Below are positions 1-64,000 of a stretch of DNA of 64,000 nucleotides, piece by piece (within the stretch, counting starts at the first letter, position 1; the number at the start of each line of letters is the position of its first letter). The DNA comes from Agromyces salentinus (GTDB lineage: Bacteria; Actinomycetota; Actinomycetes; Actinomycetales; Microbacteriaceae), in NCBI RefSeq assembly GCF_009749395.1, contig NZ_WBIR01000001.1, forward strand, positions 558,001 to 622,000, in the 5' to 3' direction. The position numbers were made by a program, and so were the translations under genes. The notes below the pieces were generated by a model. It worked only from the letters and a program-made list of their open reading frames with translations. It was not told where the DNA came from and made no database searches.

Positions 1-692
1 TACTCGCCGGCGCCCCAGTTGGCCTTGCCGATCTGCAGCACTCCACCGGTGGCGCCAAGGATGCCGCTGAGCGTCCGCCCCGTCGTGTTCTCACCGACGA
101 GCACGTGGTCGACGTAGAGCTTCGCGGTGGCGCCGTCGACGACGAGGTCCACGTGCGTCCAGTCGGCCCGGCTCGCGGCGGCCGTCATGTTGCCGTCGAC
201 GTTGCGGAACCCCGCATTGTCGTAGCGCTCGACGGTGATGGCCGATGCGGTGTCGATGACGCCGAGGTAGGTCTCGTTCTCGAAGACGTTCGGGCTCGCC
301 GAACGCGAGGCGAAGACCGTCCAGCCCTGGTTGCCGCCCTCGGGCTTGCGGTCGTACGAGAACGTGGCGGCATCGAGCCCCTGCAGCACCGGCGAACCGT
401 CGGTCTTCGCGAGGTCGAGCCAGAACCCGGCGCCGATCCGGGCCGCGGTGCCCTGGCCCTCCTTGCCGGCGACGAGCGAGGCATCGCCCCGGACCGTCGC
501 GCGAACCTCGCCCGAGGTGAACGCACCCCCGGTCGGTTGCTCGTCGAAGGTGAACTTCGCGATCGCGTCGGTCTCGGCGTGCGCCGCGGGAGCGGCGAGG
601 CCGAGCACGAGGGCCCACGCGGCGACGATGGTCCCGAGACCGCGGAGTCTCCGGCTGCGGGACCGGGTGGCCGCTCGGTTGGGATCGTTCAC
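1..692 (-). CDS. secreted LamG/concanavalin-like protein, 3' end outside window
   Basis: The gene starts at GTG (690-692) with a strong GAGGAGG Shine-Dalgarno at about 698-706 and runs off the left edge, so about 230 residues are visible. Residues 1-40 form a Sec signal peptide: an arginine-rich n-region, a hydrophobic core AWALVLGLAAP and an AHA cleavage site. What follows reads as a LamG/concanavalin A-type beta-sandwich (FTFDEQ, GAGFWLDL, WTHVDLVVDG, AKLYVDHVLV), the module common in actinobacterial GH43-type arabinanases and xylosidases or as a lectin domain. No catalytic domain is visible in the part present, so enzyme class cannot be assigned. A LacI-type operator lies upstream at 769-782, which fits sugar-controlled expression. 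The secreted LamG call is firm; the substrate is unknown. Confidence 0.75.
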   Translation of the reverse strand, partial: MNDPNRAATRSRSRRLRGLGTIVAAWALVLGLAAPAAHAETDAIAKFTFDEQPTGGAFTSGEVRATVRGDASLVAGKEGQGTAARIGAGFWLDLAKTDGSPVLQGLDAATFSYDRKPEGGNQGWTVFASRSASPNVFENETYLGVIDTASAITVERYDNAGFRNVDGNMTAAASRADWTHVDLVVDGATAKLYVDHVLVGENTTGRTLSGILGATGGVLQIGKANWGAGE

Positions 693-768
693 GGGACATC
701 CTCCTCGATGTCAGGGAATACAGGGGGTGCGTCGGATCGTCACGGGCCAGGCGGTGCTTCCACCAGAT

Positions 769-782
769 TGTTCCCGGTAACA
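769..782. promoter_or_regulatory. LacI-family-type operator
   Basis: TGTTCCCGGTAACA is a near-perfect 14-base palindrome with a central CG and one mismatched pair. It matches the general TGTTNCCGGNAACA form of LacI/GalR-family operators in actinobacteria. It lies about 77 bases upstream of the LamG gene start, suggesting repression relieved by a sugar. No cognate regulator lies inside the window. Confidence 0.5.
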
Positions 783-974
783 CTGAGCGCTTGGCGATCG
801 TAACTCACGGAACGGTCGGTGCGCCAGACCGACCCCGTGGCTTCTCGGCCGCACCAGCTCCGCCCCGGTGGCAGCTTCGCCCGGCGACGGCCTCGAGCAG
901 CTTCACGGCGCGACGAGTCCATCCCGGTTCGCCTCGACCCGTCGGCGAGATCCCCCGGGTCGTGGTCTCGAGGC

Positions 975-992
975 GCGCTGCCCACGCAGCGC
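975..992 (-). terminator. possible weak terminator hairpin
   Basis: GCGCTGC and GCAGCGC pair around a CCAC loop, 10 bases beyond the acyl-CoA dehydrogenase stop. There is no T-run, so this could simply be an mRNA-stabilising hairpin. Confidence 0.3.
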
Positions 993-1001
993 AAGCCCGC
1001 G

Positions 1002-2201
1002 TCAGAACGCCGCGATGCCCGTGAGCGCCCGCCCGAGCACGAGCTGGTGGATCTCGTCGGTGCCCTCGTAGGTGCGAACCGACTCGAGGTTCGCGGCGTG
1101 CCGCATGACGGGGAACGCGTTCGTGATGCCGTCGCCGGCGAGTATCGACCTGGCCTGGTGGGCGATCTCGAGCGCCTCGCGCACGCTGTTCAGCTTGCCG
1201 ACCGAGATCTGGGCCGGGGTGAGCGCGCCGCGCTCCTTCAGCCGGCCGAGGTGCAGCGCGAGCAGCACGCCCTTCTCGACCTCGACGAACATGTCGGCGA
1301 GCTTGGCCTGCGTCAGCTGGTTCGCGCCGATCGGCCTGCCGAACACCTCGCGCGTCATCGAGCGCTCGAGCGCGGCCTCGAGGCACGAGCGCGCGGCGCC
1401 CATCGCTCCCCAGACGATGCCGTACCGCGCCTCGTTGAGGCAGCCGAAGGGTCCGGAGAGACCGGATGCCCCGGGCAGCATCGCGTCGGCCGGCACGCGC
1501 ACGCCGTCGAGGTCGAGGTCGCACTGCACCGAGGCGCGCATCGAGAGCTTGCCGTCGATGGGCGTGGCGGTGAACCCGGCCGTCGTGGTGGGCACGAGGA
1601 AGCCGCGCACGGCGCTCGCTCCCGCGCCGTACGCCCCTGACGCGTCGTCGACACGCGCCCACACGACGGCCACGTCGGCGAGCGACGCGAGGCCGATCCA
1701 CCGCTTCGCCCCGTCGATGATCCACTCGTCGCCCTCGCGCCGAGCCACCGTGATCATCGCGGCGGGGTCGCTGCCGCCCTGGGGCTCGGTCAGCGCGAAG
1801 CATCCGATCAGGTCGCCCGCGGCCATGCCGGGCAGCCAGCGCTGCTTCTGCTCCTCCGAGCCGTACTTGTGGATGGCGCTCATCGCGAGCGATCCCTGCA
1901 CCGACACGAACGTGCGCCAGCCGCTGTCGGCGGCCTCGAGCTCGAGGCAGACGAGCCCGTACGCTACGGCGCCCGCACCGGCGCACCCGTAGCCCTGCAG
2001 GTGCATGCCGAGGAATCCGGCGTCGCCCATGACCTTCACGAGCTCGCGGCGGAAGTGCTTCTGCTCGAAGTCGTCCTCGATGATCGGCAGGATGCGCTCC
2101 TGCGCGACGGTGCGCGCCCGCTGCTGCCACTCGCGCTCCTCGTCGGTGAGGAGGGCGTCGAGGTCGAACACGGTGTCGATGCGGGGGGCGATGACGGTCA
2201 T
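1002..2201 (-). CDS. acyl-CoA dehydrogenase (glutaryl-CoA dehydrogenase-like)
   Basis: This 399-residue flavoenzyme should oxidise an acyl-CoA at the alpha-beta bond with FAD and pass electrons to ETF. The family order is visible: N-terminal helical domain, the mid-domain motif FALTEPQGGSDPA (about residues 130-142), a beta domain with DGAKRWIG, and a C-terminal helical domain. EGTDEIHQLVLGRALTG near the end has the usual Glu/flavin-contact region, and ARYGIVWGAMG with TYEGTDEIHQ resembles glutaryl-CoA dehydrogenases. Its ATG overlaps the stop of the upstream CoA-transferase (ATGA), so the two are translationally coupled. Together they could activate and oxidise a dicarboxylic acid such as glutarate. 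The pathway is inference; the family is secure. Confidence 0.9.
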   Translation of the reverse strand: MTVIAPRIDTVFDLDALLTDEEREWQQRARTVAQERILPIIEDDFEQKHFRRELVKVMGDAGFLGMHLQGYGCAGAGAVAYGLVCLELEAADSGWRTFVSVQGSLAMSAIHKYGSEEQKQRWLPGMAAGDLIGCFALTEPQGGSDPAAMITVARREGDEWIIDGAKRWIGLASLADVAVVWARVDDASGAYGAGASAVRGFLVPTTTAGFTATPIDGKLSMRASVQCDLDLDGVRVPADAMLPGASGLSGPFGCLNEARYGIVWGAMGAARSCLEAALERSMTREVFGRPIGANQLTQAKLADMFVEVEKGVLLALHLGRLKERGALTPAQISVGKLNSVREALEIAHQARSILAGDGITNAFPVMRHAANLESVRTYEGTDEIHQLVLGRALTGIAAF

Positions 2202-3397
2202 GCGCGGGGTCCTTCCGAAGGGTCGAGCGGGTCGAGCGGGTCGAGCGGGTCGTCGAGCGGATGCCAGTCGGCGCCCGCGTGCTCGTCGAGCGACGGCGGC
2301 GGCGTGCGATAGGCGGCGGGCGTCTCGGCGAGGTGGATCGGGTTGGCGATCGACCGGCCGGCGTGCGCGTCTGGCGCATCGCGCCGCGTCTCCACCACCG
2401 GCTCGAGCCCGAGCGACTCGGCGAACGCGATCGCCTCGCCGATGTCGTTCACGAGGCCCGCGGGCACACCGGCGGCGGCGAGCTGCTCGATCCACTGCCC
2501 GGCGGATGCCGCGGCCAGTCGCTGCTCGATGACGGCCGTCAACTCGGCACGGTGCTCGACGCGCGAGGCGTTCGTCGCGAACCGCCGATCGTCGGCGAGG
2601 CCGGCTTCCCCGAGCACCCCGGCCAGCGCCCGGAACTGCCGGTCGTTGCCGACGGCGATGACGAGCGCTCGGTCCTCGGCGGTGAAGACGGCGTACGGGG
2701 CGATGCTCGGATGCGCGTTGCCGAGCCGTCGGGGCGGCGTGCCGGTCGCGAGCGTCGAGCCCGCCTGGTTCGTGAGCGCCGAGAGGAGACTGCCGAGCAG
2801 GTCGAGCTCCACGAGCTGCCCTCGCCCCGTGCGGTCGCGCTCGCGGAGCGCGAGCAGGATGCCGGCGAACGCGTTCTGCCCGGTGAGCACGTCGACGAGC
2901 GCGACCCCCGCCTTGGCCGGGGCGCCGTCGGGCTCGCCCGTGATCGACATGAGCCCACCGACGGCCTGCACGAGCAGGTCGTACCCCGCGAGGGCCGCCC
3001 CCGGCCCCGAGCCGAAGCCCGTGATCGAGCAGTAGACGACGCCGGGGTTCACCGCTGCGACATCCTCGTACGCGAGGCCGAACCTCGCCATGACCCCTGG
3101 ACGGAAGTTCTCGATCACGACGTCAGCGGAGGCGACGAGCCGCCGGGCCTCGGCCACTCCCGCGGCATCCGCGAGGTCCAGCGCGATCGACCGCTTGTTG
3201 CGGTTGACGCTGCCGAAGTAGGTGGCCTGGCCGCTCGCGTCGACCGGCGGCGTCCAGTGCCGCGTGTCGTCACCGGTCGGCGGCTCGACCTTCAGGACGT
3301 CGGCGCCGAAGTCGGCGAGCATCATGGTCGCGTACGGACCGGCGAGCACGCGCGAGAAGTCGGCGACCCGCACGCCGTCCAGCGGTCCCCGCGGCAT
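2198..3397 (-). CDS. family III CoA-transferase (CaiB/BaiF)
   Basis: This 399-residue CaiB/BaiF-type CoA-transferase moves CoA between acyl-CoA and a free acid through an aspartyl-CoA intermediate. LDGVRVADFSRVLAGPY opens the Rossmann-like domain, and the catalytic Asp sits in GYDLLVQAVGGLMSITG (about residues 140-156). KRSIALDL and the linking of two domains by a long loop also fit. The ATG at 3397 is preceded by GAGGAGGG at good spacing, which decides against an ATG 24 bases upstream. The C-terminus carries a short LDP tripeptide repeat from a 9-base tandem repeat. ATGA overlap couples it to the acyl-CoA dehydrogenase; a glutarate or similar acid is a plausible substrate. Confidence 0.9.
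   Translation of the reverse strand: MPRGPLDGVRVADFSRVLAGPYATMMLADFGADVLKVEPPTGDDTRHWTPPVDASGQATYFGSVNRNKRSIALDLADAAGVAEARRLVASADVVIENFRPGVMARFGLAYEDVAAVNPGVVYCSITGFGSGPGAALAGYDLLVQAVGGLMSITGEPDGAPAKAGVALVDVLTGQNAFAGILLALRERDRTGRGQLVELDLLGSLLSALTNQAGSTLATGTPPRRLGNAHPSIAPYAVFTAEDRALVIAVGNDRQFRALAGVLGEAGLADDRRFATNASRVEHRAELTAVIEQRLAAASAGQWIEQLAAAGVPAGLVNDIGEAIAFAESLGLEPVVETRRDAPDAHAGRSIANPIHLAETPAAYRTPPPSLDEHAGADWHPLDDPLDPLDPLDPSEGPRA
2220..2252 (-). repeat. 9-base tandem repeat in the CoA-transferase tail
   Basis: GGGTCGAGC is repeated three times in a row plus a broken fourth copy. It keeps the reading frame and encodes the repeated Leu-Asp-Pro tail of the CaiB-type protein. Confidence 0.8.
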
Positions 3398-3592
3398 CCG
3401 GCCCTCCTCGGTTCGATGCACGCCACGATACCGACGGCGGCCGCATCGGCGGGTGTACGCGTTGTCGATCGGAGCGCCGAGAACAGACTCGACGTCGATA
3501 TCCGGGCCCCGGGTACGAGGCTTAAGCTTGCATCAGGTGTGCGTCGGCGCCGACCGGCGCGAGCGATTCGTGCACCGTCGAGAAGGAGCCCA

Positions 3593-4957
3593 ATGAGCTA
3601 CGCAGTGGTCAACCCGGCGACCGGGGAGACGATCAACACATACCCGACGATCACCGAGGAGGGCCTGCAGGCCGCCATCGCCTCCGCCACCGAGGCGCAC
3701 CGCACGTGGTCGAGGAGCACCACGGTGGCCGAGCGTGCCGCGCTCATCCGCCGCGTCGCCGAACTCCACACCGAGCGGGCGCAGGAACTCGGCGAGATCA
3801 TCGTGCGCGAGATGGGCAAGCCCATCGAGCAGGCGGTCGGCGAGGTCGAGTTCGCCGCGGCGATCTACGAGTACTACGCCGACAACGCCGAGTCGCTGCT
3901 GGCCGACGAGCAGATCACGCTGCTCGACGGCGAGGGCTCGGCCCTCATCCGCCGCTCGTCGCTCGGCCCGCTGCTCGGCATCATGCCGTGGAACTTCCCG
4001 TACTACCAGGTGGCCCGCTTCGCCGGCCCGAACCTCATCATCGGCAACACCATCCTGCTCAAGCACGCCGAGCAGTGCCCCGAGTCGGCTGCCGCGATGG
4101 AGCGGATCTTCCGCGACGCCGGGTTCCCCGAGGGCGCCTACGTCAACATCTACGCGTCGCACGACCAGATCGAGACCGTCATCGCCGACCCTCGGGTGCA
4201 GGGCGTCTCGCTCACCGGCTCCGAGCGGGCGGGCGCCGCCGTCGCCGAGATCGCCGGACGTCACCTCAAGAAGGTCGTGCTGGAGCTCGGCGGGTCCGAC
4301 CCGTTCATCCTGCTCTCGACCGACGACCTCGACGCGACCGTCGAGGCGGCCGTGCTCGCGCGCGTCGACAACAACGGCCAGGCCTGCAACGCGGCCAAGC
4401 GCTTCATCGTCGTCGAGGACCTCTACGAGCCCTTCCTCGAGAAGTTCACCGCCGCGATGAACGCCGTTGAAGAGGGCGACCCCGCCAAGGAGGGCACCGC
4501 GCTCGGACCGCTCTCGTCGGCCAAGGCCGCCGACGGGCTCGCCGAGCAGGTCGAGCGCGCCGTCTCGCAGGGCGCGACGCTGCACTCGGGCGGCGCCCGC
4601 AACGGCAACTACTACTCGGCGACGATCCTCACCGACGTGGGGCCCGAGTCCGACGCCTTCCGCGAGGAGTTCTTCGGCCCCGTGGCGCAGGTGTTCAAGG
4701 TCGCCGACGAAGAGGCCGCCGTCGACCTCGCGAACGACACGCCCTTCGGTCTCGGCTCCTACGTGTTCACGACCGACCAGGAGCAGGCGCTGCGCGTGGC
4801 CGACCGCATCGAGGCCGGCATGGTCTTCGTGAACGTCGTCGCCGCCGACGGCGCCGAGCTGCCCTTCGGCGGCATCAAGCGCTCGGGCTCGGGCCGCGAG
4901 CTCGGCCGCTTCGGCGCCGACGAGTTCGTCAACAAGAAGATGATCCGCATCGGCTGA
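3593..4957 (+). CDS. NAD(P)-dependent succinate-semialdehyde-type aldehyde dehydrogenase
   Basis: This 454-residue aldehyde dehydrogenase starts at ATG 3593, after AGAAGGAG at 3581-3588. Key residues are visible: PWNFPYYQ (about 130-137), the general-base Glu in [10 protein letters not shown] (about 231) and the nucleophile Cys in [11 protein letters not shown] (about 265). FFGPVAQVF and [17 protein letters not shown] complete the family signature. The length and the short N-terminus match the YneI/GabD2 group of succinate semialdehyde dehydrogenases, which make succinate from succinic semialdehyde. It stands alone, with a hairpin just downstream. A second, longer enzyme of the same class occurs at 55986-57458, so this copy may serve another aldehyde. 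Confidence 0.9.
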
Positions 4958-4991: not shown

Positions 4992-5037
4992 CGGATGCCC
5001 CGGGCTCCCGATCCACGTCGGCGGCCCGGGGCATCCG
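4992..5037 (+). terminator. GC-rich hairpin after the aldehyde dehydrogenase
   Basis: CGGATGCCCCGGG pairs with CCCGGGGCATCCG: 13 base pairs around a 20-base loop, 34 bases past the stop. There is no T-run, as is usual in high-GC actinobacteria. The stem contains the GGATGCC word that is over-represented in this window. Confidence 0.6.
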
Positions 5038-7230: not shown

Positions 7231-7248
7231 GGATGCCGCGCGGCATCC
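7231..7248. repeat. perfect 18-base palindrome between rplK and rplA
   Basis: GGATGCCGCGCGGCATCC is fully self-complementary. It sits in the untranslated gap between two co-transcribed ribosomal genes and is another instance of the GGATGCC...GGCATCC arrangement. It could fold as an RNA hairpin that adjusts the L11:L1 ratio, or act as a DNA site. Confidence 0.6.
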
Positions 7249-14264: not shown

Positions 14265-16538
14265 ATGAGTCGAAACCCAGCCCGACGCGCCCTGCCGCGT
14301 CTGCTCGCCGTCGCCGTCACGGCCGCCGCCGCGGCGGCCGTCCTCGTTCCCGCACCGGCCCTCGCCGCCGGCGCCTCCGATGGACGCTCCCAGTCGCCGT
14401 ACGTCCAGGCATTCCAGCCCACGCTGGTCGCCCGGGCGACGCTCTCGGCCGACCACCTCGAGGCAGGTCCCGCCTCCGGCGCGCTCGCGTCGCCCGGGAA
14501 CGGCCGCACCGGCCCCTGGGCGGGTCAGGTCATCCCCGGGTTCTCCGCCGCGATCGACAACGGCGACGGCACGTTCTGGGCGCAGCCCGACAACGGCTTC
14601 GGCACGAAGGCGAACTCGGCCGACTTCCTGCTGCGCAACTACCTCGTGCGCCCGGCATGGCAGACCGCCGAGGGCGGCGACGGATCCATCGCCGTCGAAC
14701 GCTTCATCTCGTACAACGACCGCAACGGCGTGCTCGACTTCCCGATCGCGAACGGCGCCACCGACGAGCGCCTCCTTACGGGCGCCGACTTCGACATCGA
14801 ATCGGTCGTGCGAGCGAAGGACGGCACGTTCTGGGTCGGCGAGGAGTTCGGCCCGTTCCTGCTGCACTTCGCCGCCGACGGCACGCTCCTCGAGAAGCCG
14901 TTCTCCCTCGGCGGCGCGAAGTCCCCGCAGAACCCCTACCTGCAGGCCGGCGAGACGCCGCGCGTGCGCGCCAGCCGAGGCTTCGAGGCGCTCGCGGCAT
15001 CCGTCAACGGCCGCTACCTCTACCCGGTGGTCGAGGGCTCCTACGCGGACGACGCCGACCTGCGCCGTCGTGAGATCCACGAGTTCGACACGCGTCGCGG
15101 GGCGTACACCGGCCGCACGTGGAGCTACCAGACCGATCAGGAGGCCAACGTCATCGGCGACGCCTTCACGGTGCGCAACGACGTGCTGCTGCTCGTCGAG
15201 CGCGACGACTTCGAGGGCGACCAGGCGGTCACCAAGCGCGTCTACGAGGTCGACCTGCGTCGCACCGACGCCAACGGGTACGTCGAGAAGACGCTCGTGC
15301 TCGACGCGCTGCGCATCGCCAATCCCGACGGGATCGGCGCGGGCGACGGCTATGGCACCGGCGAGGTGTTCTCGCTGCCGGTCCAGTCGTTCGAGACCGT
15401 CGTGCAGCTGAAGGGCGGCGACCTGCTCATCGGCAACGACAACAACTACCCCGGCAACGACGCGCGCATCCCCGGCTCCCCCGACGACACGGAGTTCGCG
15501 GTCGTCGACCTCGACAAGGTGAAGATCGAGCCCTCGCCCGTGACGCTCATCGGCCACCGCGGGGCGAGCGGGTACCGCCCCGAGCACACGCTCGCCGCGT
15601 ACGAGACGGCGATCGTGCAGTGCGCGGACTACATCGAGCCCGACGTGGTCGCCACGAAGGACGGCGTGCTCGTCGCCCGTCACGAGAACGAGATCAGCGG
15701 CACCACGGATGTCGCGGCGCGCGCCGAGTTCGCGTCCCGCAAGGCGACCAAGGTCATCGACGGCACGCGCGTGACCGGCTGGTTCACCGAGGACTTCACG
15801 TTCGCCGAGCTGCGGACGCTCCGCGCGAAGGAGCGGCTGCCGCTCACGCGACCCGCGAACACCGCCTTCGACGGCCTCTACCTCGTGCCGACGCTCGACG
15901 AGGTCATCGACCTGGCCCGCCACTCGGTGAGCTGCGACGGACGCCAGGTCGGCGTCTACCCCGAGACGAAGCACCCGACGTACTTCGACTCGATCGGCCT
16001 GTCGCTCGAGGAGCCCCTCGTCGCGGCGCTGCAGGCCGACGGCCTCGACGACGCCGACGCCCCGGTCATCGTGCAGAGCTTCGAGGTCGCCAACCTGCGC
16101 GAGCTCGACGGCATGACCGAGGTGGCGATCGCGCAGCTCGTGAGTTCCTCGGGCCGCCCCTACGACTTCACGGCCGCCGGCGACCCGCGCACCTACAAGG
16201 ACCTGGTCACCCCGGCCGGCCTCGCCGAGATCGCGACGTACGCCGACGGCGTGGGCCTGGAGAAGTCCGTCATGATCCCCCGCACCCCGTCGGGCACGCT
16301 CGGCGCCCCGAGCCCGGTGATCGCCGACGCGCACGCCGCCGGCCTGACCGTGCACGGGTGGACGTTCCGGCTCGAGAACCAGTTCCTCCCCGCGGAGTAC
16401 CGCTCGAGCACCGACCCGAACGCCGCGGGCGACCTCGTCGGCGAGATCCGCGCCTTCGTGGCGGCCGGCATGGACGGCGTCTTCAGCGACCACCCCGAGG
16501 TCGCCGTGACCATCGACGCGGTGCCCGCCGAGGGCTGA
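14265..16538 (+). CDS. secreted phytase-like domain fused to glycerophosphodiester phosphodiesterase
   Basis: This 757-residue secreted protein has a signal peptide (about 1-34, LLAVAVTAAAAAAVLVPAPALAA) and two enzymatic modules. Residues ~45-425 form an esterase-like phytase domain, a beta-propeller with WAQPDNGFG, DIESVVRAKDGTFWVGEEFGP and NDNNYPGND. Residues ~430-755 form a GDPD TIM barrel with LIGHRGASGYRPEHTLAAY, EPDVVATKDGVLVARHE, YPETKHPTYF and HGWTFR. GDPD enzymes split glycerophosphodiesters to glycerol 3-phosphate, so the pair may release phosphate or glycerol phosphate from lipid head groups or teichoic acids. ATG 14265 lacks a clear ribosome-binding site. A 36-base perfect palindrome follows as terminator. 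Confidence 0.9.
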   Translation: MSRNPARRALPRLLAVAVTAAAAAAVLVPAPALAAGASDGRSQSPYVQAFQPTLVARATLSADHLEAGPASGALASPGNGRTGPWAGQVIPGFSAAIDNGDGTFWAQPDNGFGTKANSADFLLRNYLVRPAWQTAEGGDGSIAVERFISYNDRNGVLDFPIANGATDERLLTGADFDIESVVRAKDGTFWVGEEFGPFLLHFAADGTLLEKPFSLGGAKSPQNPYLQAGETPRVRASRGFEALAASVNGRYLYPVVEGSYADDADLRRREIHEFDTRRGAYTGRTWSYQTDQEANVIGDAFTVRNDVLLLVERDDFEGDQAVTKRVYEVDLRRTDANGYVEKTLVLDALRIANPDGIGAGDGYGTGEVFSLPVQSFETVVQLKGGDLLIGNDNNYPGNDARIPGSPDDTEFAVVDLDKVKIEPSPVTLIGHRGASGYRPEHTLAAYETAIVQCADYIEPDVVATKDGVLVARHENEISGTTDVAARAEFASRKATKVIDGTRVTGWFTEDFTFAELRTLRAKERLPLTRPANTAFDGLYLVPTLDEVIDLARHSVSCDGRQVGVYPETKHPTYFDSIGLSLEEPLVAALQADGLDDADAPVIVQSFEVANLRELDGMTEVAIAQLVSSSGRPYDFTAAGDPRTYKDLVTPAGLAEIATYADGVGLEKSVMIPRTPSGTLGAPSPVIADAHAAGLTVHGWTFRLENQFLPAEYRSSTDPNAAGDLVGEIRAFVAAGMDGVFSDHPEVAVTIDAVPAEG

Positions 16539-16560: not shown

Positions 16561-16596
16561 ACGGGCGGGCGGATGCCGCGGCATCCGCCCGCCCGT
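16561..16596. terminator. 36-base perfect palindrome, bidirectional terminator
   Basis: ACGGGCGGGCGGATGCCG is followed immediately by its exact complement, with no unpaired spacer in DNA. It sits between the convergent GDPD gene and the WxL-like gene and is followed by GTTTCG on the plus strand. The core is GGATGCCGCGGCATCC. Confidence 0.8.
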
Positions 16597-16626: not shown

Positions 16627-17253
16627 CTACTCGAAGAGCGAGAGCGTGACCGTTCCGGAGTAGGTTCCGGCCTCGACGTCGGCCGGGGTGCGCAGGAACA
16701 GGTCGGCGTTCGCCGTCCACGACCCCTCAGCGGCGATCTCGCCGGAGTCCCAGGCGCTGGCGAACAGCTCCTGGTCGACGAGGCCGACGTTGTCGGGCGC
16801 CTCGTCGAGCACGGTCAGCACCTCGTCGCCCGCCGCGACGAGGCCCGACTCGCCGCCGTCGATCAGCTGGGGGGCCCAGCCGAGGTGACCGGCGCCGATC
16901 TCGGCCTGCCCGGCGTCGCCCGCGAAGCCCGACGAACTGCCCAGGACGTACCAGGCGGATCCCTCGGGGATCTCCTCGGCCGTGCGGGTGTCCGTGATCG
17001 TCACGGTCGGCAGCGTTCCCGTGAACTGGCGCACGAGCTCGCTCGAGCCGTTCTCGGCCAGTGCCACCTGCGTGCCCGCGATGCTCATCGCCAGCACGCC
17101 CGGCTCGGTGATCTCGGCGACCTCGACGCTCACCTCGACCTCGCCGCCACCGTGCTGCTCCTCGGCCATCGCGATGCCCGCGTTGCCCGCCAGCACCAGT
17201 CCGCACACGGCAGCGCCGGCCAGGGCTCCGATGCGCCATCTCGACTTCGTCAT
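16627..17253 (-). CDS. secreted WxL-like surface protein
   Basis: This 208-residue secreted protein starts at ATG 17253 after AAGGAGAG. A signal peptide covers ~1-30 (IGALAGAAVCGLVLAGNAGIAMA). The mature part reads like WxL-type beta-sandwich surface proteins: VEVSVEVAEITEPGVLAMSI, TLPTVTITDTR, SAWYVLGSSSGFAG, GHLGWAPQL and the closing TPADVEAGTYSGTVTLSLFE. WxL proteins bind peptidoglycan or stay cell-surface associated in other Gram-positives. It is the last gene of the glycosidase operon, 56 bases after the GH29 gene, so it may display or bind the same glycans; that role is inference. Confidence 0.75.
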   Translation of the reverse strand: MTKSRWRIGALAGAAVCGLVLAGNAGIAMAEEQHGGGEVEVSVEVAEITEPGVLAMSIAGTQVALAENGSSELVRQFTGTLPTVTITDTRTAEEIPEGSAWYVLGSSSGFAGDAGQAEIGAGHLGWAPQLIDGGESGLVAAGDEVLTVLDEAPDNVGLVDQELFASAWDSGEIAAEGSWTANADLFLRTPADVEAGTYSGTVTLSLFE

Positions 17254-17309
17254 GTTGCTCTCCTTCATCACTCGGGTCGGCCCGCGGTCGGGGCCCGTGA
17301 ACCACGTCA

Positions 17310-20300
17310 TCAGCCGCACGAGCGCGCCTCGTACGGAACCGTCTGCGCCGAGGTGACCGGCTCGCCGTCGACTTCCGCCTTCGCCGTGATCGACACCTCA
17401 CCGGCCGGCAGCTCGGCGAGCCGGGTCGAGAACGCGTGGAAGGCGTTCTTCCCGGGCTGCACCGCCGAGAACGAGCGCTCGCCGAACCCGGTCGCGAGCG
17501 TCACGGCGACCGGGTCGGTCTCGCCGTTCACCGCGCGCACCGACAGCACCGCGGCACCCGCGACGCACTTGCTGGACACCGACGCCACGACCTCCAGCGA
17601 GGGCGCCTCGGGAAGGTCGAGCACCCAACCCTGCTGCGAGAGTGCGCCGAACACCTCGTGGACCGATCGGTCGCCGAACGTGGGCGCGGTACCGCCGCCG
17701 ACCACGTCGACGGTGATCGGCGCCTCATCGGTGCCGTACCCCCAGAAGGGCGTCGGCGAGTCGGCGCAGGTCGTCCCGGAAGCGAGGTGGACCTCGGCGC
17801 CGGGCGCCAGCTCGGCGGTGCGGAACTGCGCGAGGGACGAGAAGGGCCGCTCGGCGCTGCCGTCGCCCGCGACATCCGCTGAGCAATCGAGCGTGACGTC
17901 GGCGAGCCGGCCCGGATCTGTCGAGAGCTGCTCGTAGAGCGCGAGGGTGGCGAGCGAGTACGGCGCACGAGCCCGATCGATCGACACCCGGAAGCGCTGC
18001 GCGGTCACGGTGCTCGGGAGGGTCACGATGCGGCTCAGTCCGACGGTTCCCGCCTTCGCGATCTCGACCCATGCGCCGTCGACCTCGGCGTCGATCGAGA
18101 ACGACTCGATGACCTGGCCGTGCTCGAGCACGCCCTCGCCGAGCTCGACGCGGCGCACGGCCTGCGGCGAACCGAGGTCGAGGACCACGTCGCCCGGAGC
18201 GGCATCCGCGCTGAGCCAGGATGTGCGGGTGTCGCCGTCGGTGAGGGCTGCGGATGTCTCGTCGCCACCCACCTCGACCGGAACGCCGATCGCATGGTCC
18301 TCGGTGAGCGCCTTGCGCCGCTCCGCGGCGAAGCCGTCGAGTGCGGCGACGGAGGCCGGCGCGAACGAGCCCGTCGTGGTCGGCGGCGTGTTCAGGAGCA
18401 TGACCGAGTTGCGACCGACGGTGTTCTGGTAGTGGCCCATGAGGGCACTCGGAGTCTTGGGCGTGTCACCCGGGTGCGCGAACCATCCGGGCGTGAGCTT
18501 CATGTCCGACTCGGTGGGCCACCAGTGCAGGGCGTCGGCGCCGCTCGCCACGGCCGCCTCGAGCGCCGCGGCCGAGCCGACCTGCTCGAACGAGCCGCCG
18601 TCGACCGGATCGATCTTGCCGCCGTCGCCTCCGTCACTGATCGCGACCGGCGCCCACTCGTCGACCCGCGCCGTGCCGTGTTCGTTGCCGACCCAGCGCA
18701 CGTCGCGCCCGCCGACGGCGACGACCGCCCCCGGTTGCACCTTCGAGATCAGGTCGTAGAACGCGGGGTAGTCGTAGAACTCCTGCTTTCCGGTGTTGCC
18801 CGCGGCTCCGTCGAACCAGACCTCGTCGACCTGGCCGTACTGGGTGAGCACCTCGTAGAGGGTGTTCAGGAAGTACGCGCCGTAGTCGGTCGCCGAGTAC
18901 TCGAAGGTCTCGAGCTCGGTTCCGGCCCGATCGTCGCCCTCGACGAGCGTCGGAATGGTGCGCGGCGTCTTCGCGCTGCCGTTGCCGAAGACCCCGAACT
19001 GCTCCTCGTGCGAGTCGGCGGGCGACATGTAGAGGCCGACCTTCATGCCGTACTTGCGCGCGGCCTCGGTGAACTGGCGCACGATGTCGCCCTCACCGTC
19101 CTTCCACGGAGTGCCTGCGACGTCGTACGCCGAGTAGCGCGAGGGGTAGAGCAGGAACCCGTCATGATGCTTGACGGTGAGGATCGCCATGCGGTGGCCG
19201 CTGTCACGCAGCGACTTCACCCAGCCATCGACATCGATCTCGCCGGTCGGCTGGAACCGCGAGAGGTCCTCCGTGCCGTGGCCCCATTCCTGGTTGTAGA
19301 ACGTGTTGATGCCGAAGTGGATGAACGCGGTCAACCCGAGTTCCTGCCAGGCGACCTGTGCCTCCGTCGGACGCACGAGCGCCGCCTTCGCGAGGATGTT
19401 CTCGGGGCAGTCGGCCGACGTCACCTGGATGTAGTTGGCCGGGGCGATCTCGCCGAGCGGGAGGCAGGGCATCGGTTCGTCGAGCTCCTGGTAGCGGAAC
19501 GCAGCGTCGGCGAAGTCGCCGTTCAGCAGCGCGAATCGAGCGCGATCGATGGTCCCGCTGAATCCGCGGTTCCCGACCGCCGGCACGTCGTTGCCGAGTG
19601 CGAGCGCCGTCGTCGTGGCTTGGTTGCGCGTGGCGGGCGCCGCGCCGGTCACCACGGGCAGCGCCTTCCCGTCGAGCCACGCGATGACCTTCGTCTCGGT
19701 CGCGCTGGGAACATACGCAAGAGACAGGATGTGCGGCTGGCCGGTGGCCGGGAGGGCGACCTTGCTCGAGTAGTCGTGCCACGTGCCGTCGATCTGCGCG
19801 CTGAATCCGTACTGCAGCCCGTCCGAGCGATAGCGAGCCGAGAAGTTCCCGCCGACGGCGGCGACCGTCGCGAGATCCGCCTGGGCACCGGTCGCGCTGA
19901 ACTCCGTCTCGATCACGAACCCGCGATCGAGGGATGCCCCGGTGAACGGATCCTCGGCCGCGGTGAAGTCGGCAGCGTGGTTGCCGCCGCCGAGGTTCAA
20001 CCGGCCGCTGCCGATCGTCGCGCCGCTGCGAAGAGCCAACGCGCCGTCGAGGTCCTCTCCCGAGGCGGGCGTGTACGCGGCGGCGGCCGTCGCACCGTCG
20101 AATCGCAGGTCGAGCAGGCTCGTGGTGAGCGGCGCGGGCTGGAACTCGAAGAGCTCGGGATCGTAGGCTTCGATGTCGCCGACGACTCGCACCTTCGCGA
20201 GGTCCCCCCGCAGGCCGCGGGCGGCACCTGACGGATGCACTTCGTGGCCGAAGCCGAACGCGTTCGTGGCTGCGGCGCTGACGCCGACCGGTGCGTCGGC

Positions 20301-26995: not shown

Positions 26996-28222
26996 GTGAC
27001 CGAGAAGCCGCGCCTTTCAGCCCGTATCGCCGCCATCGCCGAGTCCGCGACCCTGAAGGTCGACGCGAAGGCGAAGGCCCTGCAGGCCGAGGGGCGCCCG
27101 GTCATCTCCTACGCCGCGGGCGAGCCCGACTTCGCGACGCCCGACCACATCGTCGAGGCCGCGCTCGCGGCCGTGCACGACCCGAAGAACTACCGCTACA
27201 CGCCTGCCACGGGCCTGCCCGAGCTGCGGGAGGCCATCGCCGCGAAGACCCTGCGCGACTCGGGCCTCGAGGTCTCGCCCGGCCAGGTCGTCGTCACGAA
27301 CGGCGGCAAGCAGGCGGTCTACCAGGCCTTCCAGGTACTGCTCGACGCGGGCGACGAGGTGCTCGTGCCGACGCCCTACTGGACCACCTACCCCGAGGCG
27401 ATCAAGCTCGCGGGCGGCGTGCAGGTCGACGTGTTCGCCGGCTCCGACCAGGGCTACCTGGTCACGGTCGAGCAGCTCGAGGCCGCACGCACCGAACGCA
27501 CGAAGGTCCTGCTGTTCGTGTCGCCGTCCAACCCGACCGGCGCCGTGTACTCGCCCGAGCAGACCCGCGCCATCGGCGAGTGGGCGCTCGAGCACGGCAT
27601 CTGGGTCGTCTCCGACGAGATCTACCAGAACCTCATGTACGCCCCCATCGACGGCGACCTGGATGCCCCCGCCCCGCGGGCCGTCTCCATCGTCGAGGCG
27701 GTGCCGGGCCTCGCAAACCAGGCGATCCTGGTGAACGGCGTCGCGAAGACCTACGCCATGACCGGCTGGCGCCTCGGCTGGATGGTCGGCCCGGCCGACG
27801 TCATCAAGGGCGCCGCGAACCTGCAGTCGCACCTCACCTCGAACGTCTCGAACATCTCCCAGCGGGCGGCCATCGCCGCGCTCAACGGCCCGCAGGACGC
27901 GGTCGAGGAGATGCGTCGGGCCTTCGACCGGCGCCGACGGCTCATCGTCTCGGAGCTCTCGAAGATCGACGGGCTCACCGTCCCGGTCCCCGAGGGCGCG
28001 TTCTACGTCTATCCCGACCTCACCGGGCTCCTCGGCCGCGAGTGGGGCGGCGTCACGCCGACGAACTCCCTCGAACTCGCGGACCTGATCCTCGACCAGG
28101 CCGAGGTCGCGGCGGTTCCCGGCGAGGCGTTCGGGCCGAGCGGGTTCCTCCGGCTCAGCTACGCTCTGGGCGATGCCCCGCTGCTCGAGGGCGTGCAGCG
28201 CCTGCAGCGCCTCTTCGGCTAG
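26996..28222 (+). CDS. aspC: PLP-dependent aspartate-type aminotransferase (class I)
   Basis: This 408-residue fold-type I aminotransferase should interconvert aspartate and oxaloacetate using glutamate/2-oxoglutarate. Diagnostic parts: [15 protein letters not shown] (~35-49), [47 protein letters not shown], and the PLP lysine in [16 protein letters not shown] (~250). FLRLSYA near the end holds the substrate-carboxylate arginine. GTG 26996 is favoured because the TACACT box leaves no room for an upstream start. Downstream is a 13-base-pair terminator. The prephenate-aminotransferase subgroup is an alternative. Confidence 0.92.
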
Positions 28223-55947: not shown

Positions 55948-55980
55948 TCGGATGCCGCGACGCGGCGTCGCGGCATCCGA
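55948..55980 (-). terminator. hairpin between gabD and the amine-oxidase gene
   Basis: TCGGATGCCGCGACG pairs with CGTCGCGGCATCCGA (15 base pairs) around a CGG loop. It starts 6 bases after the gabD stop and lies in a probable operon, so it may be an attenuating or processing hairpin rather than a full terminator. The core is again GGATGCC...GGCATCC. Confidence 0.6.
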
Positions 55981-58847: not shown

Positions 58848-58851
<4 letters not shown>

Positions 58852-60245: not shown

Positions 60246-60340
60246 TGGCGTGCTCCGATCAGGTGTGACGACGGTGGCTGATGCGGCAATGCTAGGTCGG
60301 GCACCGGCCCCCACGTACCGCCCCGATGTACACTGAGCTG

Positions 60341-60353
60341 GTCCACATTGGAC
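60341..60353. promoter_or_regulatory. candidate regulator site between gabT and pucR
   Basis: GTCCA and TGGAC are inverted around CAT, directly before the PucR-family gene in the divergent promoter region. Several GTAC words (60315, 60328, 60360) lie around it. It is a plausible PucR binding site, but small. Confidence 0.3.
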
Positions 60354-60371
60354 GCGACGTACAGGAGCCCC

Positions 60372-61982
60372 GTGAAGCCGACCGTGCAGACGCTGCTCGA
60401 CCGCGACGAACTCGGCCTGCGGCTGCTCACGTCGCCGCTCGCCCGCGACGGAGCGGCCCTCGCGGCGCCCGTCGTGTGGGCGCACAGCTCCGACCTCGCC
60501 GACCCGACGCCGTTCCTGGACGCGGGGCACGTGCTGCTGACCACGGGCACCCAGTTCGACGGCGACGAGGCCGGCGGGGATGCCGCGGGCTTCGCGCGCG
60601 CCTACGTGCAGCGTCTGGGCGACCGGGGCGTGGCCGCGCTCGGGTTCGGCACGGAGGTGATCCGCGACGGCACGCCGACGGCGCTCGTCGAGGCGTGCGC
60701 CGAGCTCGGGCTGCCGCTGTTCGAGGTGCCGTACCGCGTGCCGTTCATCGCGATCGCGAAGCTCGTCGCCGACCTCCTCGCCGAGGACGCCTACGCGCGC
60801 CAGGCGTGGGCCCTCTCGGCGCAGCGGGCGATCTCCCGCGCAGCGCTTCGACCCGACGGACTCTCGGCCACGCTCGGGGAGCTCTCCCAGCGGCTGGACA
60901 CCTGGGTCGGGCTCGTGGACGCCACCGGCGCGCTCGACCGCGAGGCGCCCATCGGCGGACTCGCCCAGCCCGCGCTCGGCGAGGTCGTCGGCGAGGCGCG
61001 ATCGATGCTCCGGCGCGGCCAGCGGGCGGGCCGCACGCTGCTCGCGGGCGACTCGGTCGGCGAGGCGCAGCAGGTCACCCTGCAGACGCTCGGTTCCGGG
61101 GGCGCCCTCCGCGGCGTCCTCGCCATCGGCGACTCCCCCGAGCTCGACCAGGCCGGACGCGAGGTGGTGACCTCGGTCATCGCGCTCGCGGGACTCGCGC
61201 TCGAGCAGAACCGCAACCTCGACCGGGCGCGCGGGCACCTGCGAACCGGCCTGCTCCGCAGCCTGCTCTCGGGCGACACCGCCCTCGCCGACGGGGTCGC
61301 CACCGAGATGTGGGGCCCGTTGCCGTCCGCCCCGGTGCGGGTCGCGGTGGCGGATGCCCCTGCGCTGGCGTTCGACCGCATGACCGAGCTGCTCGAACTG
61401 CGCGTCGACGAGCGCGGCGGCCGGCTGTTCTTCGCGCGTGACGAGGACCGGGTCGTGCTCGTGCTCGAGGCGGCCGACGGCGAGATCGCCGACGAGCTCT
61501 CGTCCGAGTTCGAGGTGCCCGTCGGCCTCTCCGACGCGGTCGGCCTCGAGGCCCTGGCCCTCGCGCACGAGCAGGGGCTCAGGGCCCTCGAGCGCGCACG
61601 GGAGTCCGGCGCCCGCGAGGCCGGGACCCGCGGTGCAGGTCAGGGCGGAGCCGGCGCCGCGCGGCCCAGGGTCGTCGCGTTCGACGAGATCAGCCGGCAG
61701 GGCGTCCTCGCCTTCCTCGCCCGGACCGACGCCAGGGCGGTCGCGATCGCCACGCTCGCGCCGCTCGTCGAGCACGACGCGGCATCCGGCACCTCGCTCG
61801 TCGAGACCGTGCGGACCTGGCTCGAGCACGGCGGCCAGTTCGACGCGACGGCGCAGCGGCTCGGCGTGCACCGGCACACGATCCGGAGCCGCATCGCACT
61901 CGCCGAGCGGCTGCTCGACCGCGACCTCTCGGGATTCCACGCACGCGCCGACCTCTGGGCGGCGCTGCTCGCGGTGCAGTAG
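60372..61982 (+). CDS. PucR/CdaR-family transcriptional regulator
   Basis: This 536-residue regulator has an N-terminal PucR domain (~1-125), a central GGDEF-like/CdaR region and a C-terminal PucR-type helix-turn-helix (~475-536: LFLARTD-like lead, then TWLEHGGQFDATAQRLGVHRHTIRSRIALAERLL). GTG 60372 follows AGGAG by 4 bases. Members of this family activate purine, GABA or amine catabolic operons when the substrate is present. Divergence from gabT makes control of the GABA/putrescine operon the obvious hypothesis. A low-complexity Gly/Ala/Arg insert lies at ~415-440. Confidence 0.88.
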   Translation: MKPTVQTLLDRDELGLRLLTSPLARDGAALAAPVVWAHSSDLADPTPFLDAGHVLLTTGTQFDGDEAGGDAAGFARAYVQRLGDRGVAALGFGTEVIRDGTPTALVEACAELGLPLFEVPYRVPFIAIAKLVADLLAEDAYARQAWALSAQRAISRAALRPDGLSATLGELSQRLDTWVGLVDATGALDREAPIGGLAQPALGEVVGEARSMLRRGQRAGRTLLAGDSVGEAQQVTLQTLGSGGALRGVLAIGDSPELDQAGREVVTSVIALAGLALEQNRNLDRARGHLRTGLLRSLLSGDTALADGVATEMWGPLPSAPVRVAVADAPALAFDRMTELLELRVDERGGRLFFARDEDRVVLVLEAADGEIADELSSEFEVPVGLSDAVGLEALALAHEQGLRALERARESGAREAGTRGAGQGGAGAARPRVVAFDEISRQGVLAFLARTDARAVAIATLAPLVEHDAASGTSLVETVRTWLEHGGQFDATAQRLGVHRHTIRSRIALAERLLDRDLSGFHARADLWAALLAVQ

Positions 61983-61999
61983 GCCGGACGGCCGACGGG

Positions 62000-62005
62000 T
62001 AGCGT
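62000..62005 (+). promoter_or_regulatory. -10 box TAGCGT, leaderless start
   Basis: TAGCGT ends 7 bases before ATG 62013 of the SGNH hydrolase gene and no Shine-Dalgarno is present. Confidence 0.45.
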
Positions 62006-62012
62006 TGGTCGC

Positions 62013-62783
62013 ATGTTCCACTCGTATGCGGCCATCGGCGACAGCTTCACCGAGGGCGTCGGCGACGAACTGCCCGACGGCACCGTGCGCGGCTGGGCCG
62101 ACTTCGTCGCCATGGGCCTCGCGCTCGCGGCACGCGAGCCGATCGGCTACGCCAACCTCGCGATCCGCGGCCGGAAGCTCGGACCGATCATCGAAGAGCA
62201 GCTCGAGGCGGCCATCGCGCTGAAGCCCGAACTGCTGAGCTTCAACGGCGGCGGCAACGACATGCTGCGACCCCGCATGGACGAGCAGACCACGGCGGCG
62301 CGCTTCCGGCAGGCCATCAACCGCATCCGCGAGGAGGACATCCACGTCCTCATGCTGAGCGGCGCGAACCCGACGGAGCACCTGCCCCTCGGCAAGGTGT
62401 TCGACGCACGTGGCGCCCGCCTGACGGCCGCGCTCGTCGATCTCGCCGACGTTCCCGGCGTCACGTTCGTCGACAACTTCAACGACCTCGGGCTCCGCGA
62501 CATCCGCTACTGGTCGGCCGACAAGCTGCACCTGAACTCGCTCGGGCACGCGCGGGTCGCGAGCAACGTCCTCACCGCGCTCGGCGTGGCCGTGCCCGAG
62601 GAGTGGGGCGTCGCCGAGGTCGCCGCGGCACCCGCCGGCCCGCGCAGCCGCAACACGGCGGCGTACTACCGCGAGTTCGTGCTGCCGTGGGTCGGGCGCC
62701 GGCTCACCGGGCGTTCCTCCGGCGACGGACGCCAGGCGAAGCGCGCGACCCTCGAACCGCTCACGCCCGACTCGGCGCGCTGA
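62013..62783 (+). CDS. SGNH/GDSL-family hydrolase
   Basis: This 256-residue serine hydrolase has the block I nucleophile in AAIGDSFTEGVGDE (~6-19), block II Gly in NLAIRGRKLG, block III Asn in SFNGGGNDML (~75) and the block V Asp/His in SADKLHLNSLGHARV (~170). There is no signal peptide, so it acts in the cytoplasm, probably as an esterase or lipase on small acyl esters. The ~50-residue C-terminal tail is Arg/Gly-rich. ATG 62013 is supported by the TAGCGT box. A degenerate repeat array begins at its stop codon. Confidence 0.9.
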   Translation: MFHSYAAIGDSFTEGVGDELPDGTVRGWADFVAMGLALAAREPIGYANLAIRGRKLGPIIEEQLEAAIALKPELLSFNGGGNDMLRPRMDEQTTAARFRQAINRIREEDIHVLMLSGANPTEHLPLGKVFDARGARLTAALVDLADVPGVTFVDNFNDLGLRDIRYWSADKLHLNSLGHARVASNVLTALGVAVPEEWGVAEVAAAPAGPRSRNTAAYYREFVLPWVGRRLTGRSSGDGRQAKRATLEPLTPDSAR

Positions 62784-62896
62784 AGCGCCGGCACCGCTGG
62801 ACCGCCGGCACCGCTGGACCGCGAGCACCGCTGAACCGCCGGCGTCGCAGACCGCCGGGGTCGCTGAACCGCGAGCGCGCTGAGCCGCCGGCCCAC
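62780..62896. repeat. degenerate 16-17-base repeat array
   Basis: Seven adjacent units share the form CTGNACCGCCGGCACCG: 62780, 62797, 62814, 62831 (17 bases each), 62848, 62864 (16 bases) and 62880. The first unit contains the hydrolase stop codon. Each unit holds a GCCGGC-type or GCGAGC core. No long open frame uses the array on the plus strand. Confidence 0.75.
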
Positions 62897-62929
62897 CGGT
62901 GCCACGGCGTCTCCGGGGCGGAACCCGCC

Positions 62930-63421
62930 TTAGGAACCCTCGCGCACCGACTGCATGAATCCCGTGACGTGGTCGCGCAGGGCCTCGATGCGACGGAGCC
63001 TCGCCGCCTCGACATCGAACCCGAGGTATGCGACCGGGGGAAGGCGTCGGACGTTCCTCGAGCACTCGAACCCCGCGCAGGCCAGCGTTCCGATCGTGTC
63101 GCCCTTGCGACCCGACGCCCCGGCGCGCTTGGCGGTGTAGAGCACGACGTCGTTCGGCAGCGTCACGTCCTCGCACCACGAGCATTGCGGCCGCGTGCGG
63201 ATCCGTCCGTCCGCCTCGCGGAGGATGATGCCGACGAGTCCGTCGCCGACCTCCGCGACGACGTACCCGACCTTGGGCAGCTTGGGGTCGCGCCATCCGA
63301 GGAAGTCGAGCCGCTCCCAGTCGAGGTCCGCGAAGCCGGCCGGGAGGGTGACCGAGGCGCGTTCGCGCTGGGTCGCGTTGATGAACGAGGCGCGGATGCG
63401 CGTGTCGTCGATGGGGAGCAT
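62930..63421 (-). CDS. FBP-domain (EF-G-binding/FusB-like) zinc-finger protein
   Basis: This 163-residue protein has the FBP_C treble-clef zinc finger: CSWCED (~78-83) and CAGFECSRNV (~113-122) provide four cysteines around VVLYTAKRAGASGRKGDTIGTLA. The N-terminal half (LDWERLDFLGWRDPKLPKVGYVV, GIILREAD) matches the family. FBP/FusB proteins bind elongation factor G and can free it from fusidic-acid-stalled ribosomes. ATG 63421 follows GAAGGACG. A paralogue lies directly upstream (63667-64000). The family is clear; drug resistance here is only inference. Confidence 0.88.
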   Translation of the reverse strand: MLPIDDTRIRASFINATQRERASVTLPAGFADLDWERLDFLGWRDPKLPKVGYVVAEVGDGLVGIILREADGRIRTRPQCSWCEDVTLPNDVVLYTAKRAGASGRKGDTIGTLACAGFECSRNVRRLPPVAYLGFDVEAARLRRIEALRDHVTGFMQSVREGS

Positions 63422-63538
63422 GTGAGACGTCCTTCGTCGTGTCGGGGTCGCTCGCGCGAGCCCGCAGCGTGGTTCGGTTCCGAATGGGTGCCCGTGCGGC
63501 GACTGCCGTTCACGGGAGGCGCGCCGAGGCGCGGGAGA

Positions 63539-63607
63539 TCACGGGCGCGACGGCCCTCTCCGGTCGGCATCGAATGCGCCGACGACCTCCTGACGCCCGA
63601 CGGGCAT
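63539..63607 (-). CDS. possible 22-residue leader peptide upstream of the FBP gene
   Basis: ATG 63607 opens a short frame encoding MPVGRQEVVGAFDADRRGP plus three residues, ending at TGA 63539. It lies between the TACACT box at 63639-63644 and the FBP gene. It has no Shine-Dalgarno and may be chance; it is listed because short upstream peptides often control ribosome-protection genes. Confidence 0.2.
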   Translation of the reverse strand: MPVGRQEVVGAFDADRRGPSRP

Positions 63608-63638
63608 GGGGAACGGAACGTGCTGACTCACGAGGGCG

Positions 63639-63644
63639 AGTGTA
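63639..63644 (-). promoter_or_regulatory. possible -10 box TACACT for the FBP gene
   Basis: On the minus strand TACACT lies about 218 bases upstream of the FBP ATG, with a weak -35. If used it leaves a long 5' leader, which includes the short frame at 63539-63607. Confidence 0.3.
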
Positions 63645-63666
63645 CACAGCGGGGCTGGGGCGACCC

Positions 63667-64000
63667 TCAGGCCTCGGCGGAGACGACGTTCGCGACGAAC
63701 GCGCGCGTCCGGCGTGCGAGCCCCTCGATGCGCTCGAGCTCGCGCAGGCCGGGCAGCACCTCCGACGGGCCGGCCGGGCGGCCCAGCCGCACGGTCTCCT
63801 GGCATGCGAGGTCGCTGCACATGTAGGTGCCGATGCTGTCGCCTCGCTCGCCCGCGGCGCCGGCCTTGCGCGCCGAGATGATCGCGACCTGGTCGGCCGG
63901 CTGCTGGGTATGGCACAGGTTGCAGATGGCCGCCCGGTGGTGGGACCCGCTCGCCGCCGGGGTGCGCAGCACGACGCCGACGGGTTCGCCGTCGAGCTCG
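63667..64000 (-). CDS. FBP-domain zinc-finger protein, 5' end outside window
   Basis: This gene runs off the right edge; about 110 C-terminal residues are visible, reading on from ELDGEPVGVVLRTP. The four cysteines are present as CNLCHTQQ and CSDLACQE around VAIISARKAGAAGERGDSIGTYM. This is the same treble-clef motif as the neighbour at 62930-63421, with clear similarity (ARKAGAAGERGDSIGT against AKRAGASGRKGDTIGT). The two are tandem paralogues on one strand. The start codon lies outside the window. Confidence 0.85.
   Translation of the reverse strand, partial: ELDGEPVGVVLRTPAASGSHHRAAICNLCHTQQPADQVAIISARKAGAAGERGDSIGTYMCSDLACQETVRLGRPAGPSEVLPGLRELERIEGLARRTRAFVANVVSAEA

Follow-up and report, generated by a model that had tools for sequence, protein, structure and literature searches.

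The heptamer GGATGCC (GGCATCC on the other strand) is strongly over-represented in a stretch of 64,000 nucleotides from Agromyces salentinus, referred to here as the window, which covers positions 558001-622000 of contig C12 (NZ_WBIR01000001.1) of a 4.23 Mb genome in 40 contigs (G000). The enrichment is real, it acts at the level of the DNA, and it extends through much of the Microbacteriaceae. Judged by analogy with known systems, its closest counterpart in behavior is an uptake-sequence system with dialects. We propose tentatively, with somewhat less than even confidence, that GGATGCC, which has the flank-extended form CGGATGCCGCG in Agromyces, marks self DNA in the manner of an uptake sequence and owes its spread to biased uptake and recombination.

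The window contains 99 copies of GGATGCC (56 on the plus strand and 43 on the minus strand), dispersed between positions 59 and 61787 (first copy at 59-65, last at 61781-61787), compared to a mean of 13.5 and a maximum of 25 in 100 dinucleotide shuffles. An earlier note on this DNA had counted about 85 copies against about 15 expected, in near equal orientations, mostly inside genes and with recurrent flanks. Its description holds: 76 of the copies lie in called genes, 23 lie outside or straddle gene borders (the called non-coding DNA amounts to 6,216 bp), and 54 of the 99 belong to the 9-mer CGGATGCCG. GGATGCC is the top 7-mer of the window under an order-2 Markov model, and also of 424 kb of G000 (641 copies vs 121.4 expected). 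Nor is the enrichment confined to the window, which the note would have taken as a refutation: genome-wide, there are 5,842 copies vs 371 for the reversed word, a density of 1.4 per kb. Uptake signal sequences (USS) have a density of about one per kb. The reversed word is a control that runs low because it contains TAG, and the ratios obtained with it are 1.3 to 3.5 in 23 genomes from other families of the order. Another word, CGAGCAG/CTGCTCG, occurs 104 times in the window (33.6 expected under the order-2 model); it is absent from the top 15 words of the codon-aware analysis described below, and its excess is therefore probably codon-driven.

The note had claimed that the word overrides codon choice, and considered that a codon-pair-preserving null with the same count would refute this. 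Genes were called with a script of our own rather than with a standard gene finder (380 genes, 86% of the 424 kb in G000), and shuffled in a way that preserves the protein, the codon usage and the dinucleotides at codon junctions. The window genes contain 76 copies of GGATGCC, compared to 25.1 ± 3.0 (maximum 34) in 300 such shuffles. Over the 424 kb of G000, the genes have 497 copies vs 163.5 (maximum 184 in 60 shuffles), about three times the null, and those of a closed Microbacterium genome (G255) have 591 vs 178 (maximum 199 in 60 shuffles). Among all 7-mers, GGATGCC ranks second in G000 under this null, after the overlapping CGGATGC, and first in G255.

The excess is unevenly distributed over the reading frames. 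The Gly-Ile frame (GGC-ATC-C) makes up about two thirds of the null expectation and is hardly enriched (117 vs 107.6 in G000 and 153 vs 121.8 in G255); the other frames hold 380 copies vs 56 in G000, and 438 vs 56 in G255. Aspartate is encoded by GAT in 24 of 41 xxG-Asp-GCC contexts of the window genes, vs 108 of 1,177 other positions; the corresponding figures are 175/250 (70%) vs 898/7,498 (12%) in G000, and 260/316 vs 1,018/7,051 in G255. Similarly, alanine between G and TCC is encoded by GCA in 155 of 217 cases in G000 (882/17,280 elsewhere) and in 139 of 174 in G255 (752/15,567 elsewhere). The aspC gene (26996-28222, plus strand), which the note used as its example, illustrates this in part: GAC encodes 19 of its 21 aspartates and GCC follows both GAT codons, as stated, but only the GAT at 27662 makes the word (27661-27667, plus strand, spelled CTG-GAT-GCC), the other giving CGATGCC. 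Sense and antisense copies are both enriched in genes, which indicates an effect on the DNA rather than on the mRNA. These data support the conclusion that the word is maintained at the DNA level and overrides codon choice. The same null also reveals words that are under-represented in the genes of G000 and G255, which are GGAC/GTCC words such as CGCGGAC and CGCGTCC, and CGCGCGC in G000.

The flanks of the word in G000 are biased towards C at −1 (77%), G at +7 (73%), C at +8 (76%) and G at +9 (69%), hence the form CGGATGCCGCG. The exact 9-mer is enriched 12.9 times. A single mismatch in the 7-bp core leaves at most 3.4 times, except for GGATGTC (6.1 times), and a mismatch at either flank position of the 9-mer leaves 2.9–4.6 times. 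GGATGCC is thus non-palindromic, with a strict core and graded flanks, a combination that it shares with the DNA uptake sequences (DUS) and USS and that GGATCC, a word of related genomes discussed below, does not have. The core is identical in the Microbacterium loci, where G or A occupies +7 in 95% of cases and −1 has only a weak preference. The locus L099 (2,989 bp) was included in this analysis of word shape alone, and the short locus L125 (1,930 bp) yielded no enriched word. GGATGTC is a second, weaker enriched word of the Agromyces loci (18 copies vs 2.0 in L001); in the named Agromyces it occurs 132 times vs 88.2 under the codon-aware null (maximum 102).

Copies of GGATGCC that lie close to each other (45 bp or less) are most often arranged as a plus copy followed by a minus copy (+−): 30 of 63 close pairs in G000, where about 10.6 are expected per class, and 24 of 50 in G255, where 13.9 are expected. 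This order accounts for 20 of 25 intergenic close pairs in G000 and 9 of 12 in G255. The ratio of +− to −+ over all close pairs is 30:7 in G000 and 24:12 in G255, 42:19 in 23 other Agromyces loci, 36:12 in the Microbacterium testaceum group and 8:0 for GGAGGCG in G158; the control words GGACGCC and CGAGCAG give 1:0 and 9:7, respectively.

The note had described the word as the core of intergenic hairpins. Indeed, inverted intergenic pairs occur in the window; four are described here, and the three that were folded are all predicted to form hairpins. The first (copies at 4993 plus and 5030 minus, spanning 4993-5036), downstream of the called gene 3593-4957, gives a hairpin whose 21 pairs are interrupted by a single internal mismatch, with a predicted RNA folding energy of −44.0 kcal/mol. 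The second (7231 plus and 7242 minus; 7231-7248) gives a compact one (predicted −14.6 kcal/mol). The third lies in the palindrome CGGATGCCGCGGCATCCG (16571-16586, copies at 16571 and 16580), between the convergent called genes 14265-16538 (plus) and 16627-17310 (minus), with a predicted energy of −21.1 kcal/mol. The fourth (55950 plus and 55972 minus; 55950-55978) is a pair by position alone.

No orientation of the word relative to replication was seen. In 20 stretches of 20 kb (400 kb) of the closed Microbacterium chromosome G255, the largest contrast in strand between two halves of the chromosome, for any position of the origin, is 24 for 722 sites; the null mean is 43.3 and 93% of the nulls are at least as large. 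No contrast is seen by eye along C12 of G000 either. The polar form of the Chi-like site suggested in the note was therefore rejected on the basis of these 400 kb, and so was a polar site of the KOPS type (FtsK-orienting polar sequences).

The words differ between lineages of the Microbacteriaceae. A search of related genomes, suggested in the note, finds 2,611 to 5,916 copies of GGATGCC in 36 congeners, with a ratio to the reversed word of 6.5 to about 17, and over 199 genomes of the family this ratio ranges from about 0.9 (G106 and G168) to 25 (G112). Other lineages are enriched in GGATGCG, GGATCC, AGGAGGCG or CAGGA[T/G]C/CGCAGGA; the genera carry automatic numbers, without a species tree, and the counts left out the short stretches G063 (1,187 bp), G105 (5,677 bp) and G207:C2 (1,351 bp). 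Other genera are rich in GGATGCG (e.g., 3,725 copies in G077 and 4,904 in G084), and Herbiconiux loci have both GGATGCG (125 vs 29.0) and GGATGCC (79 vs 24.8). With 25 codon-aware shuffles for each word, G084, the one genome in which GGATGCG was examined in this way as an enriched word, has 112 copies of it vs 39.9 and, more weakly, 67 copies of GGATGCC vs 40.5. G158 has 52 copies of AGGAGGCG vs 13.6, and G138 is enriched in CAGGATC (75 vs 24.8), CAGGAGC (78 vs 38.7) and CGCAGGA (66 vs 28.2).

Three species of one genus show that the word can switch. Under the codon-aware null, G207 has 346 copies of GGATCC vs 125.2 and 46 of GGATGCC vs 60.3, while its congeners G154 and G251 have 108 vs 35.0 and 74 vs 26.9 copies of GGATGCC, and 32 vs 31.6 and 19 vs 16.6 of GGATCC. 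The switch is clean: two species are enriched in GGATGCC and not in GGATCC, and the third is the reverse. GGATCC is also enriched in G090 (115 vs 39.5); within the group assigned to this word, the null was applied to G207 and G090, the three other members being of the genus of G090. All these words contain GGA with T or G as the next base, a feature noticed afterwards and without comparison to chance.

Some genomes lack such a word. None that is comparable was found in G071, G073, G100 and G208, among which G073 was examined with the codon-aware null: its three words show no clear excess (GGATGCG 38 vs 29.0, maximum 35). CGGATCG is only weakly above the null in G106 (35 vs 21.0, maximum 31) and is not claimed as a dialect. 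The Micrococcaceae and Nakamurella loci have no word of this kind. Two other repeated sequences were observed in these surveys. In the G207 stretches L158, L159 and L167-L173, AATTGGCGT and AGAATTGG each count 16 vs 0.1–0.2 expected, and are perhaps parts of one dispersed repeat. GTTGTAG/CTACAAC occurs 77 times vs 4.6 in loci of the Microbacterium testaceum group within L031-L058, and is also high in G112 and G154.

The conservation of the sites between species was estimated from pairwise alignments around the dGTPase gene, a site being retained if it is identical in the aligned partner. The named relatives nearest to this gene of the window are those of A. allii (90% identity) and A. terreus (87%). 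Of the 23 Agromyces loci, all but L011 and L017 were used (100 of the 210 pairs that these 21 form), and for Microbacterium, 100 of the 153 pairs formed by 18 loci. GGATGCC is retained in 1,298 of 2,313 cases (0.56) in Agromyces, vs 0.34 when the 21 one-mismatch words are pooled; the figures for Microbacterium are 4,314 of 5,572 cases (0.77) vs 0.42. GGACGCC, which has the preferred Asp codon, is retained at 0.21 and 0.22, respectively. No variant among 20 exceeds GGATGCC in Microbacterium; four of the 19 with at least 60 cases do so in Agromyces (AGATGCC 0.72, GGATGAC 0.70, TGATGCC 0.64 and GCATGCC 0.57). Retention counts as supporting evidence only, because the reading frames are unmatched and the pairs share sites.

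Among the explanations listed in the note for selection at the DNA level, an uptake-type sequence fits best, as a proposal, because the word is non-polar, has a strict core with graded flanks, forms an excess of inverted intergenic pairs and differs among related lineages. The DNA-binding step of natural transformation would favor fragments that carry the word, and homologous recombination of these fragments would spread the word and restore it wherever codons or spacers tolerate it, so that it would accumulate through molecular drive. If the specificity of the reader shifted, a lineage would gain a new word around the shared GGA[T/G] core. We infer that the reader would be a transformation receptor, that uptake would be biased, that the sites would be maintained by drive rather than by selection, and that the GGA core common to the words would be meaningful.

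The likeness to known systems is partial. Known uptake sequences are described as non-palindromic, without orientation bias around the chromosome and with about 10% of copies in inverted repeats (PMC1939737), and about 60 of the 641 copies in G000 belong to close +− pairs. The dialects of the Neisseriaceae are reported to share a conserved 3-nt core, CTG, and to limit exchange between species (PMC3630211); like these DUS, the Microbacteriaceae words occur in thousands of copies, with what may be a short common core. Unlike the Neisseriaceae, the hosts are monoderm Actinobacteria, PilM was not found in G000, and the role in uptake is a proposal. GGATGCC resembles the USS of Pasteurellaceae in being a short non-palindromic word without orientation bias, but it has another sequence and occurs in another phylum, and the bias of USS towards gene ends (PMC2346458) was looked for and not seen for GGATGCC.

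The distribution of the uptake machinery was surveyed in the 199 genomes of the family for ComEC and PilM, and in sets of 67 and 73 genomes, hand-picked by word and not random, for other families. TadE was found in 55 of 67 genomes: all 29 rich in GGATGCC, 13 of 17 rich in GGATGCG, all five formed by G207 and genus g53, two of four in g54, one of four in g26, neither of the two in g69, and five of six others. T2SSF was found in 73 of 73 genomes (72 over the cut-off), with a single match in G106, G168, G071, G146, G201, G100 and G139, and also in the enriched G144. The link of TadE and T2SSF to the word is suggestive at most. In the actinobacterium Micrococcus luteus, tad genes are reported to be needed for transformation (PMC4322843), and the filament machinery is compatible with a function of the words in uptake, without being a proof of it.

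Several observations weigh against uptake. ComEC (PF03772) is present in 197 of 199 genomes, including non-enriched genera, and being near-universal it does not discriminate the enriched ones. PilM occurs in 100 of 199 genomes (99 over the cut-off), but not in the strongly enriched G000 or in the sampled genomes of g75 and g99, so that its link to the word was rejected; TadE was not found in the remaining four GGATGCG-rich genomes, and genus g32 is strongly enriched yet has one or two T2SSF matches. This survey of ComEC, PilM, TadE and T2SSF identified no receptor. There is no clear +− excess in G247, G084, G251, G154, G138 and Herbiconiux, where close pairs are few, and codon-atypical genes show no depletion of the word. 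GGATCC is palindromic, which known uptake sequences are not, according to the source cited above. No report of natural transformation in Microbacteriaceae was found among the matches listed in the open-licence literature.

Five Microbacterium phages have 77 copies of GGATGCC in total vs 47.5 expected. Four of them show no strong enrichment, at 0.6 to 2.0 times expectation (Min1 16/12.8, SanaSana 6/10.0, Clayda5 21/10.7 and Lynlen 15/10.2, observed/expected), but Efeko (L252, NC_052941, 17.5 kb) has 19 copies vs 3.7, about five times expectation, and is an exception for any model based on uptake only. A further record, L253 (NZ_CP072877.1, 230000-270000), is labelled as a Microbacterium plasmid; it looks like chromosomal sequence because it carries rplU, rpmA, leuS, dgt and a ComEA gene.

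The lack of strong enrichment in four phages would fit a non-polar "self" signal for recombination or for a nuclease, in which a helicase-nuclease or a defence nuclease would spare or recombine the DNA that bears the word, and the evolution of the enzyme would create new words. The high density, the retention between species and the lineage-specific words are in line with this. GGATGCC is indeed, like the Chi site of RecBCD, an over-represented short non-palindromic word. However, E. coli Chi is described as nearly confined to the leading strand and as occurring once in about 5 kb (PMC8022716), and GGATGCC occurs 1.4 times per kb without polarity, as judged from one closed chromosome; the excess of +− intergenic pairs is not predicted either. 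This explanation is unlikely.

The same low probability is given to a binding site for a nucleoid-associated or chromosome-organizing protein whose specificity would drift between genera. The even use of both strands, the spread over the genome and the copies in and outside genes agree with such a site, but there is no candidate protein, and the sites are not spaced more evenly than at random: the coefficient of variation of the gaps is 0.87 vs 0.92 in G000 and 0.99 vs 0.99 in G255. In addition, the switch within a genus would mean that thousands of sites were rewritten without biased uptake.

The note had also mentioned a methyltransferase target. The precedent is the cyanobacterial HIP1 (highly iterated palindrome), a very frequent word which is reported to be replaced in some lineages by alternate HIPs that go with specific methyltransferases (PMC4390886); here a word would arise from methylation-linked repair, and a methyltransferase would set the word of each lineage. 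The palindromic GGATCC conforms to this model, but GGATGCC, GGATGCG, AGGAGGCG and CAGGAKC do not, HIPs being palindromic. The D12 (PF02086) and C5 (PF00145) methyltransferases, found in 12 and 30 of the 67 picked genomes, were rejected as setters of the word. PF01555 was promising, being found in 67 of 67. Nineteen of the 20 genes fetched encode one conserved enzyme, whose presumed recognition region (84 residues) has a single length and, in the 18 others, is identical to that of G000 at 65 to 81 positions whatever the word. The least similar of the 19 aligned copies is that of G207, which has switched to GGATCC (65/84), a point in favor of the model. However, the same enzyme occurs in G071, G073, G100 and G208, which have no comparable word, and in G149, G204 and G247, with 3,141 to 3,439 copies of GGATGCG, the top PF01555 matches are other enzymes, 22–43% identical in pieces (one weaker match of G204 was unexamined). 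PF01555 was therefore rejected as well, and none of the three families tracks the words; the survey did not extend to type I or other methyltransferases. A HIP1-like origin is decidedly unlikely. The PF01555 enzyme itself (L229-L247, 19 genes; L258-L261) has a DPPF motif, the conserved presumed recognition region and a linker whose length depends on the lineage.

A transcription terminator or RNA-level element, with the genic copies as spill-over, is very improbable: the inverted intergenic pairs and the density in G000 (2.40 per kb in intergenic vs 1.36 per kb in genic DNA) favor it, but 497 of the 641 copies are genic with both strands enriched, the densities are similar in G255 (1.77 vs 1.81 per kb), and hairpins do not explain the single genic copies.

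A signal of the uptake-sequence kind remains the preferred explanation. A broader formulation, which is more doubtful, is that monoderm Microbacteriaceae have a self-DNA recognition system that is not tied to one type of pilus. Its words, five or more in number, would be built around a GGA core, and a species could swap GGATGCC for GGATCC throughout its genome while its congeners keep GGATGCC. It would be, to our knowledge, the first uptake-sequence system known beyond the Neisseriaceae and Pasteurellaceae; no earlier report on the word, or on uptake or over-represented motifs in Microbacteriaceae, was found among the matches listed in the open-licence literature.

Even if the words do not serve uptake, a reader that acts genome-wide is still needed to account for thousands of sites that prevail over codon choice. 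If they are uptake-type signals, uptake specificity arose beyond the two Gram-negative families known for it, and the switch within a genus offers a natural experiment on changes in such a code. This large family of Actinobacteria would then have a barrier to gene exchange that is visible in the genome sequence alone.

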